This document shows positions 4,468-60,795 of a stretch of 64,000 nt of DNA, in pieces. Made by a program: the position numbers and the translations under genes. Source of the DNA: Gammaproteobacteria bacterium (lineage in GTDB: Bacteria; Pseudomonadota; Gammaproteobacteria; GRL18); NCBI GenBank assembly GCA_015488755.1, contig WFNB01000109.1, forward strand, positions 1 through 64,000, in the 5' to 3' direction. The notes below the pieces were generated by a model, which had not been told where the DNA came from, made no database searches, and worked only from the letters and a program-made list of their open reading frames with translations. Position 1 is the stretch's first letter. Each line of letters starts with the position of its first letter.

Positions 4468-4506
4468 TGTGTATGACCTATCTTATTCTTTTTATTAAGA
4501 TTTTTT

Positions 4507-4658
4507 CATAGGTAGGTAATTAAGAACTTTTGGGCTAGGATAACTCTGTGTTTACTACAGAAGACGCCGTAAATCCATCCTTGGAGGCTTTATTGCCACA
4601 TCCATGTGGCAAAAACTTCTTCCGTAAACACAGAGTTATCCTTAAGTACCTACCTATG
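4507..4658. repeat. MITE-like palindromic repeat, family A, copy 1 (152 bp)
   Basis: Terminal inverted repeats begin CATAGGTAGGTA and end in its complement at 4641-4658 (one mismatch over 18). A second inner pair, AGGATAACTCTGTGTTTAC and its complement, is perfect over 19 bases. The core contains the hairpin GCCACATCCATGTGGC. The 10-base direct repeat AAGATTTTTT flanks it exactly (4497-4506 and 4659-4668), a perfect target-site duplication. A nearly identical copy is at 60551-60701 (about four differences). No ORF inside. Its right end supplies the TAG stop codon of the symporter gene. Confidence 0.92.
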
Positions 4659-5868
4659 AAGATTTTTTACTTAAAATATCAACTGCTTTTGTTACGACCA
4701 TATCCGAGGTGACATTAACCGAGGTACGTGCCATATCTAAAATTCGATCGACAGCAACAATGATGGCCAAATACTCTACGGACAGACCAATTTCATTGAG
4801 AATAACGACCATCATGACTAACGATGCGCTAGGCAGTGCTGCGACACCAACACTCAGCGCTACTACGGTAATACCAAGCAGTAGCTGATCGCCAAAGCTA
4901 AGCACTACACCAGATAAATTAGCAATATACATAACGGCAATGGTTAGGTAAGCGGCAGTACCATCCATAGAAACAGTGGCTCCCAGTGGTAAGACAAAAG
5001 CGGCACTTTCTTTGCTAACGCCCCCTTTTTCCTGAGCAACTTTCATGCTCACTGGCAAGGTAGCAGCACTTGAGGCAGTTGAAAAAGCCATTAAGGGAAC
5101 TTCTCTAATGGCATTTAAATAGGTGTAAGGATTTATTTTAGTGGCTAAGGATAAAACAATGGGGAGGGTGATTGTACCATGAATAATGAGGACAGCTAAG
5201 ACAAGTAATATGTATTTCCATAAACCGATAATGACATCAATGCCTTGCTCTGCAACCACATAGCTAATTAAGCTGAATACGCCAATCGGTGTTAATTTAA
5301 TAACCCATTCAGCGATTTTTAACATGGCATTGGTCAGTGCGGTAGAAAAATTAAGTAATAATTGATGTTCTTTTTTATCTAGAAATAAGGTCGCAATGCC
5401 TAAAAGGATACCAAAAATAATTACCTTCATTAAGTCACCACTGGCTAGAGCCCTAAAAATATTGGTTGGAATAAAACTTAACAACATAGCTTGTGCAGAA
5501 AACTCGGCAACTTCGGATGCCTTTTTGTATTCCAGCCCTTGTGATGAGATGACTTCACCAATATTAAAGACATTCATGGCAATAATGGCCAGTAAAACAG
5601 AAAGAGCAGTGGTCAGCACGTAGAGGAAAATCGTTTTTAAACCAATATTTTTGAGTTGTTCAAGCGTGCCTAAGCCGGACACAGCAGAAAATATAGATGC
5701 GAACACCAGAGGGACGACTAACATTTTTAATAGGCTGACAAAGGCTGTACCAAGCATTTTTTGCTGTAAGGCAATTTCTGGTAGGATAATGCCGAAGGCA
5801 ATACCGGATACGATGCCGAATATGACCAGAGTATTTAAACTTGAGTGCTGTTTAATAAATTGAAACAT
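4654..5868 (-). CDS. Dicarboxylate/amino acid:cation symporter (DAACS family)
   Basis: 404 residues with the GltP/DctA-type layout: about eight membrane segments, the Ser-rich re-entrant loop (Ala-Phe-Ser-Thr-Ala-Ser-Ser-Ala-Ala-Thr-Leu-Pro near residue 265), and the transport-core motif Leu-Pro-Leu-Gly-Ala-Thr-Val-Ser-Met-Asp-Gly-Thr-Ala near residue 300. It imports glutamate, aspartate or C4-dicarboxylates with Na+ or H+; which one cannot be decided. The last Ser and the TAG stop come from the family A MITE. Without the insertion the frame would end one codon earlier at TAA in the flanking DNA, so the product is essentially unchanged. Two bases separate it from the upstream C_GCAxxG_C_C gene; they are likely co-transcribed. 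Confidence 0.9.
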   Translation of the reverse strand: MFQFIKQHSSLNTLVIFGIVSGIAFGIILPEIALQQKMLGTAFVSLLKMLVVPLVFASIFSAVSGLGTLEQLKNIGLKTIFLYVLTTALSVLLAIIAMNVFNIGEVISSQGLEYKKASEVAEFSAQAMLLSFIPTNIFRALASGDLMKVIIFGILLGIATLFLDKKEHQLLLNFSTALTNAMLKIAEWVIKLTPIGVFSLISYVVAEQGIDVIIGLWKYILLVLAVLIIHGTITLPIVLSLATKINPYTYLNAIREVPLMAFSTASSAATLPVSMKVAQEKGGVSKESAAFVLPLGATVSMDGTAAYLTIAVMYIANLSGVVLSFGDQLLLGITVVALSVGVAALPSASLVMMVVILNEIGLSVEYLAIIVAVDRILDMARTSVNVTSDMVVTKAVDILSKKSS

Positions 5869-59341: not shown

Positions 59342-60559
59342 ATGAATATCCTTATTGCACCCGATTCCTTTAAAGGCAGTCTCTCAGCCTTAGAGTTTTG
59401 TCAAATTGCAGAACAAACAATACACTCGGTTTGTCCAGATGCTTGTATAGAGACTCTACCAATGGCAGATGGTGGGGAAGGCACAATAGAGGCATTTCTA
59501 GCTCAGACAAAGGGTGAAAAATACTCTGTTCAAGTCCATGATCCCCTTGGTAATCTGATTGTTGCCCAGTATGCTATTATTGATGCACTTCGTTTTAGAA
59601 ATGTTTACTTTAACAATACCTCAGGTAAAAACCATGCGATTGCAATAATAGAAATGGCCTGTGCCTCAGGCTTGCCACTTATTGATAAAGCTCTGCAAGA
59701 TCCCATGAAAACCAGTAGCTTTGGCACAGGGGAATTAATTAAGGATGCATTAACACAAGGTTGCAGGCACTTTATTATAGGTCTTGGCGGAAGTGCCACG
59801 AATGATGGTGGCATGGGCATGTTACAGGCTTTGGGTGTTATCTTTTATGATAAAAATCAGCAGCAACTTCAGGCCTGTGGTGCAGCTTTAGAGGCAATCA
59901 CTGGTATTGATTTGAGCCATCTTGACTCAAGGTGTAAACAATCAGAATTTGTTATTGCCGCCGATGTGAATAATCCTTTATTAGGTGAAAATGGGGCGAC
60001 CTTTATTTATGCTAAACAAAAAGGAGCCGACCCAAAAAACTTAGTTATATTGGAAAAAGGTATGCACAATTTTGTGCAGCAAACACAAGACTTAATGAGC
60101 AAGCAAGGCCTTAAAAATGCTGAACTGATACACTTAAATAAGGGGGCGGGTGCAGCAGGAGGATTAGGCTTTGCGTTAATGGCTTATTGTCAGGCCAATA
60201 TGCATAGTGGTTTTGAATTAATTGCCCAACTAGCACAACTGGATACTCTATTGGCAAGGGAATATTCTCGGCCTGATCTTATTATTAGTGGGGAAGGGTG
60301 TTTTGATCGGCAAAGCTTACAGGGTAAGTTAATTGGCCGTTTGGTTCAGCGTGCTCAACACCATAAAATACCACTGGTGGTTATCTGTGGTTGTTATCGT
60401 TTTGAGAGCGATCTTAGCACTATCAGCTCGGATTTAAAGGTAGTCAGTTTATGTTCATTGGCAAGCTGTAATGACGCAAACCATCTTGAGCATTGCATAA
60501 AAAAAACAAGCGTATTAATCAAAGAGGCCATAGGACAATTAATGGATGATCATAGGTAG
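59342..60559 (+). CDS. Glycerate kinase (GarK/GlxK type)
   Basis: 405 residues from ATG 59342 (Met-Asn-Ile-Leu-Ile-Ala-Pro-Asp-Ser-Phe-Lys-Gly), the conserved start of the family; an in-frame extension upstream is not conserved. Further motifs: Pro-Met-Ala-Asp-Gly-Gly-Glu-Gly-Thr, Gly-Leu-Gly-Gly-Ser-Ala-Thr-Asn-Asp-Gly-Gly and Gly-Glu-Gly-Cys-Phe-Asp. It phosphorylates glycerate to 2-phosphoglycerate (some enzymes to 3-phosphoglycerate), linking glyoxylate or serine breakdown to glycolysis. Its last three codons (His, Arg, TAG) come from the family A MITE; without the insertion the frame would run about 15 codons further to another TAG. Confidence 0.88.
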   Translation: MNILIAPDSFKGSLSALEFCQIAEQTIHSVCPDACIETLPMADGGEGTIEAFLAQTKGEKYSVQVHDPLGNLIVAQYAIIDALRFRNVYFNNTSGKNHAIAIIEMACASGLPLIDKALQDPMKTSSFGTGELIKDALTQGCRHFIIGLGGSATNDGGMGMLQALGVIFYDKNQQQLQACGAALEAITGIDLSHLDSRCKQSEFVIAADVNNPLLGENGATFIYAKQKGADPKNLVILEKGMHNFVQQTQDLMSKQGLKNAELIHLNKGAGAAGGLGFALMAYCQANMHSGFELIAQLAQLDTLLAREYSRPDLIISGEGCFDRQSLQGKLIGRLVQRAQHHKIPLVVICGCYRFESDLSTISSDLKVVSLCSLASCNDANHLEHCIKKTSVLIKEAIGQLMDDHR

Positions 60560-60701
60560 GTACTTAAGAACTTTTGGGCTAGGATAACTCTGTGTTTACG
60601 ACACAAGACGCCGTAAATCCATCCTTGGAGGCTTTATTGCCACATCCATGTGGCAAAACTTCTTCCGTAAACACAGAGTTATCCTTAAGTACCTACCTAT
60701 G
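60551..60701. repeat. MITE-like palindromic repeat, family A, copy 2 (151 bp)
   Basis: Perfect 18-bp terminal inverted repeats CATAGGTAGGTACTTAAG, perfect inner pair AGGATAACTCTGTGTTTAC, and the GCCACATCCATGTGGC core. The 10-base direct repeat AATGGATGAT flanks it exactly (60541-60550 and 60702-60711). It differs from the 4507 copy by about four bases, so both moved recently. It lies inside the last codons of the glycerate kinase gene. Confidence 0.95.
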
Positions 60702-60795
60702 AATGGATGATAAATGTTTTTTTGAGGGCTATAATTCCATAAACTTGAATCTTGAATAGATACATTATAGCGCCAACAAACAAAGGAACATACGT

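Follow-up and report, generated by a model that had tools for sequence, protein, structure and literature searches.

A MITE at the end of a glycerate kinase gene, its dyad target and its probable IS4/ISH8-like mobiliser

A glycerate kinase gene in the window (the whole 64,000-nucleotide stretch of DNA analysed here, to which plain positions refer) ends inside a MITE of 151 bp. In all likelihood this is a non-autonomous element mobilised in trans by an IS4/ISH8-like transposase that acts at a dyad target. About 60 copies are dispersed over a genome of 3.5 Mb (122 contigs), many of them at contig ends. Their ends, their 10-bp target duplications and the T^A..T^A borders of their sites agree with those of an IS found in sister species, the transposase of which carries the DDE and YREK residues. 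An orphan MITE burst would thereby be tied to an identifiable IS4/ISH8-like transposase, and the IS4/ISH8-like group would gain a clear target rule that accounts for insertions at gene ends. For specialists, the interest lies in this target rule, in a class-wide hairpin that the MITE carries as a passenger and in the capture of an integron cassette by one copy.

The insertion in the glycerate kinase gene and its genome-wide relatives

The MITE occupies positions 60551–60701 (forward strand), as placed by BLAST and an alignment of 50 copies, and belongs to the subfamily in which the left end is followed by AACTTTTGGGCTAGG. Its layout is AATGGATGAT-CATAGGTAGGTACTTAAG...CTTAAGTACCTACCTATG-AATGGATGAT. 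The two copies of the target duplication, AATGGATGAT at 60541–60550 and at 60702–60711, are identical, which bears out the first-pass annotation of a 10-bp duplication round a nearly identical copy. The 18-bp terminal inverted repeats (CATAGGTAGGTACTTAAG, 60551–60568 on the forward and 60684–60701 on the reverse strand) are perfect as well. The outer 19 nucleotides of the arms are 100% complementary and the inner 27 nucleotides 89%; the inner stem pairs GGATAACTCTGTGTTTACG (60582–60600) with CGTAAACACAGAGTTATCC (60666–60684). Folded as single-stranded DNA, the segment 60541–60711 forms a single long hairpin with two smaller ones at its tip (z = −11.1; none of 200 shuffles equalled it). A length of 151–152 bp, 18-bp terminal inverted repeats and the absence of a transposase ORF inside are among the properties by which bacterial MITEs are recognised, as are dispersed copies that share one length of target duplication. 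The site has no match in Rfam.

The kinase gene (59345–60559, forward strand; TIGR00045, 377 bits) begins with ATG and encodes 404 residues, and its last codons, CAT AGG TAG, lie within the MITE. When the flanks are joined with a single copy of the duplication, the C-terminus reads ...MDDKCFFEGYNSINLNLE instead of ...MDDHR, i.e. the MITE-free reading ends with KCFFEGYNSINLNLE in place of HR. The earlier claim that about 15 C-terminal residues gave way to His-Arg holds for this pre-insertion reading; an empty orthologous site was looked for and none was found. The element would have entered the gene 15 codons upstream of its stop codon, and the terminal repeat would have provided a new stop after His-Arg. 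Because the TIGR00045 match spans residues 2–391 of 404, leaving the altered tail past the conserved domain, and because the kinases of sister species end about 0–12 residues beyond the last conserved helix with tails that differ in length and sequence in each, the change is probably neutral. The other window copy (4507–4658, forward strand) sits at the 3' end of a 403-aa ORF and is flanked by AAGATTTTTT duplications at 4497–4506 and 4659–4668.

A BLAST search with the MITE gives 40 long matches genome-wide, and the pattern of its end, with up to three mismatches, matches 62 + 63 times compared to 2 + 2 times for a reversed-pattern control. There are 54 distinct paired copies, 51 of which have both flanks. 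The flanking 10-mers are identical in 32 of the 51; another 13 have a single mismatch and 2 have two mismatches. Duplications at 9/10 identity or better are thus found at 45 of 51 copies, compared to 0.16% of mismatched left/right flank pairs. The first-pass annotation, which had deduced true transposition of a non-autonomous element from two copies and proposed this genome-wide tally, finds support both in these duplications at the other copies and in the IS partner of the sister species. The condition it named as refuting, a lack of 10-bp duplications at other copies, does not hold. Mean pairwise identity of the copies is 91% (alignment of 50), and there are at least two subfamilies, distinguished by AACTTTTGGGCTAGG or CATGTCTGAGGCAGG after the left end and by differences in the stem.

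The partner IS and the target site

A search for the 18-bp end in a family of 24 genomes retrieved, in two sister species (G005 and G002), an IS of 1436–1443 bp that is bounded by CATAGGTAGGTACTTAAG and CATAGGTAAGATCTTAAG and flanked by perfect 10-bp duplications; decayed copies are present in G012 and G005. One end of this IS is the same as the left terminal repeat of the window MITE, and IS and MITE have only these approximately 18 bp at the ends in common. The 1437-bp IS contains a single ORF for a 427-aa transposase of the IS4 family (NF033592 at 222.9 bits, cut-off 115; also PF01609), and its 10-bp duplication is of the length expected in the IS4 family. The catalytic residues are arranged as D122-68-D191-114-E306, with spacers within the IS4-family ranges of 60–110 and 100–150, and the Y-2-R-3-E-6-K signature is complete. 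In its CAT ends, T15, length (1437 bp, for a subgroup range of 1400–1800 bp), 10-bp direct repeats and YREK the IS resembles the ISH8 subgroup of IS4 (PMC2266710, Table 1), and an ISH8-like assignment fits, the placement being based on ends, length, direct repeats and YREK rather than on a tree. Unlike ISH8, for which no apparent target specificity is reported (PMC2266710), the elements described here occupy a dyad. The nearest named plasmid matches to the transposase are ISPa12/ISPa13, at about 36% identity.

The MITE target is the dyad YT^AR-N6-YT^AR, centred on the 10-bp duplication. Among 45 copies, the left border has T in 40 and A in 39, and the right border has T in 39 and A in 37, with Y before and R after; all nine IS insertions are likewise flanked by T^A..T^A. 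The MITE is most likely a DNA transposon moved in trans by cut-and-paste, in which an ISH8-like transposase of the IS4 family would make staggered cuts 10 bp apart at YT^AR-N6-YT^AR.

With ORFs called mechanically (at least 90 aa), 49 of the 51 copies lie between genes, and the only two inside the 3' end of an ORF are both window copies. Altering a protein end is therefore exceptional among the copies. The distance to stop codons, also suggested for tallying, is at most 25 bp in 25 of 51 copies versus 31 of 223 matched TA-N8-TA sites located outside deep ORF interiors, with ORFs called in the same way (Fisher p = 2e-7). Since T^AA and T^AG double as stop codons, the target preference accounts for at least part of this clustering; with TAA or TAG at its A+T-rich borders, insertions would collect just past genes.

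Related behaviour is known from other bacteria. MITEAba12 of Acinetobacter (PMC6382973) is also short, is linked to an IS by its terminal repeats and duplication length, and has one copy fused to the 3' end of a gene. Unlike the present element, it is 113 bp long, has 9-bp duplications that are found in just 40% of copies, shows no target sequence trend and resides together with its IS. QMITE1 and QMITE2 of Coxiella burnetii (PMC5896051) are similarly dispersed and overlap a number of functional genes at their C-terminal ends, but differ in sequence from the 151-bp MITE.

The passenger hairpin and alternative readings

The interior of the MITE (60602–60665) is a structured repeat, a three-way arrangement of a stem and two hairpins with CATCCNTG tips (60610–60632, GCCGTAAATCCATCCTTGGAGGC; 60637–60656, TTGCCACATCCATGTGGCAA). 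In the core stem the sequence is free and the pairing is kept, with two-sided changes in 24 of 39 pairs (15 sequences). In the class, 28 of the 274 genomes sampled contain the core pattern, which is spread over 26 of 221 gammaproteobacterial genera and reaches 553 matches in a single genome (G270); a reversed control pattern occurs in none of the 274. Neither a description nor a name was found in the literature searched for this core repeat. On the reverse strand its tips take the form C-ANGGAU-G, which is that of the CsrA/RsmE hexaloop given in PMC7652899. Two identities were considered for the core and rejected. As a CsrA-binding RNA, the core has loops that fit ANGGAN, but shows no orientation bias relative to genes. 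The terminal GGCGTC prompted a comparison with CGTC-tagged REPs, the description of which differs: these are mainly alphaproteobacterial, with units of 20–40 bp and tails fitting CCA (PMC3733652).

IS copies of this IS4 type, with the same ends, lie within ACATCCATGT, ACATTCATGT or ACATCCCTGT in Pseudoalteromonas, Kangiella and Methylophaga. These sites are the tips of CATCCMTG-type (CATCCMTG-loop) palindromes and have T^A borders (loci L185, L186, L188, L189, L190 and L197); some of the Pseudoalteromonas sites have flanks in common and perhaps should not be counted as independent. Hypothetically, a preference of the IS for hairpins of this kind might account for IS ends flanking a hairpin in the MITE.

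Could the MITE instead be a functional RNA or terminator module held at gene ends by selection? The number of copies near stop codons, the covariation of the core across species and the CsrA/RsmE-like loops on one strand would all suit such a role, yet we consider it quite improbable. Against it speak balanced orientations of the core relative to genes, of 25:29 and 21:22 in the own genome and, for the free repeat, of 16:15 and 12:11 in G270. Moreover, the window site has no intrinsic terminator, G218 carries the repeat and has no csrA match, and TAA/TAG borders are already favoured by the target preference. That the 10-bp direct repeats arose by chance or pre-dated the element has next to no probability: the region is A+T-rich, but the excess over mismatched flank pairs refutes this origin.

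The agent of mobilisation deserves the same scrutiny. Searches of the own assembly, one of them run without a positive control, revealed neither the IS nor its transposase gene apart from a 34-aa fragment containing a stop, and many MITEs there nevertheless have perfect duplications. A different, still resident transposase that recognises identical ends would explain this combination, but is very unlikely, given that the 18-bp end identity, the 10-bp duplication and the T^A borders are all common to MITE and IS. Furthermore, all terminal-repeat pairs inspected in the own genome enclose a MITE, except for the copy on contig C20, which holds a cassette. Since no contig seen was smaller than about 5 kb, a collapsed IS of 1.4 kb may have dropped out of the draft; the inspected contig ends that break inside terminal repeats all show the MITE and none the IS. 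Viral contigs contain no exact match to the MITE end. Returning to the IS4/ISH8-like transposase as mobiliser, we infer that it belonged to the sister-species IS or a close relative, which was later lost from the genome or is absent from the draft assembly only.

An integron cassette inside one MITE copy

In the copy on C20 (L031 1008–3008; G000:C20:11500–15500) the terminal inverted repeats are 2001 bp apart and the duplication matches at 9/10. Removal of 1849 bp restores a standard 152-bp MITE, identical to another copy at 144 of 152 positions. The insert is located at the GTT of the inner stem, which corresponds to 60678–60680 in the 3' arm of the window MITE; it begins with TTAGCG after CAGAG and ends with GGCG before TTATCC. 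Circularised, it has an R' box, GTTAGCG, that is the exact complement of its R'' box, CGCTAAC, as in an attC site. This attC shares 92% identity over 100 bp with one on C105 and is related to those on C106 and C114. The cassette contains three ORFs, one of them TIGR04255. The own genome encodes two integron integrases, which score 411 and 369 bits against TIGR02249, both above its cut-off. These differ from each other (L103 12484–13872 on C12 and L102 18536–19528 on C30), and the one on C12 is extended at its N-terminus by about 140 residues and is cut off by the end of the contig.

The inner stem of the MITE itself has boxes in an attC-like layout (GGATAAC-5-GTTTACG / CGTAAAC-5-GTTATCC), but the spacer is fully paired, and its R'' box, GGATAAC, departs from RYYYAAC, the R'' consensus; an attC site, which IntI recombines as a folded single strand, has an unpaired spacer and extrahelical bases. 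The C20 insert, a single copy, is best read as the product of a putative IntI-mediated insertion, at an attG-like site outside the classical ones. Insertion of integron cassettes outside integrons at G|TT (attG) was reported by Loot et al. (2024, doi 10.1038/s41564-023-01548-y), as cited in PMC12901181. As far as that citing text describes it, attG insertion shares G|TT with C20; in C20 the cassette entered the inner stem of a MITE and is therefore now bounded by the ends of a transposon. This arrangement may represent a path for cassettes out of integrons into ordinary transposon cargo. A broader role of the MITE as a mobile landing pad, in which IntI would place cassettes at the inner-stem GTT and an IS4-type transposase would carry them onward, appears unlikely; if it were true, the 2001-bp C20 unit would be the first of such units.

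The copy on C81 (L058) breaks at the same GTT and was considered as a second cassette capture. It was rejected as such because its flank is a neighbouring gene, which we take to be DUF2461-like, and because it has a 153-bp block in common with C57. This block is present on C81 (L101 3094–3246) and on C57 (L104 9429–9578), with different outer flanks, and consists of TAACCTGAGTTCTGG... followed by most of a MITE as far as CAGAGTT. On C81 this block sits between two convergent genes.
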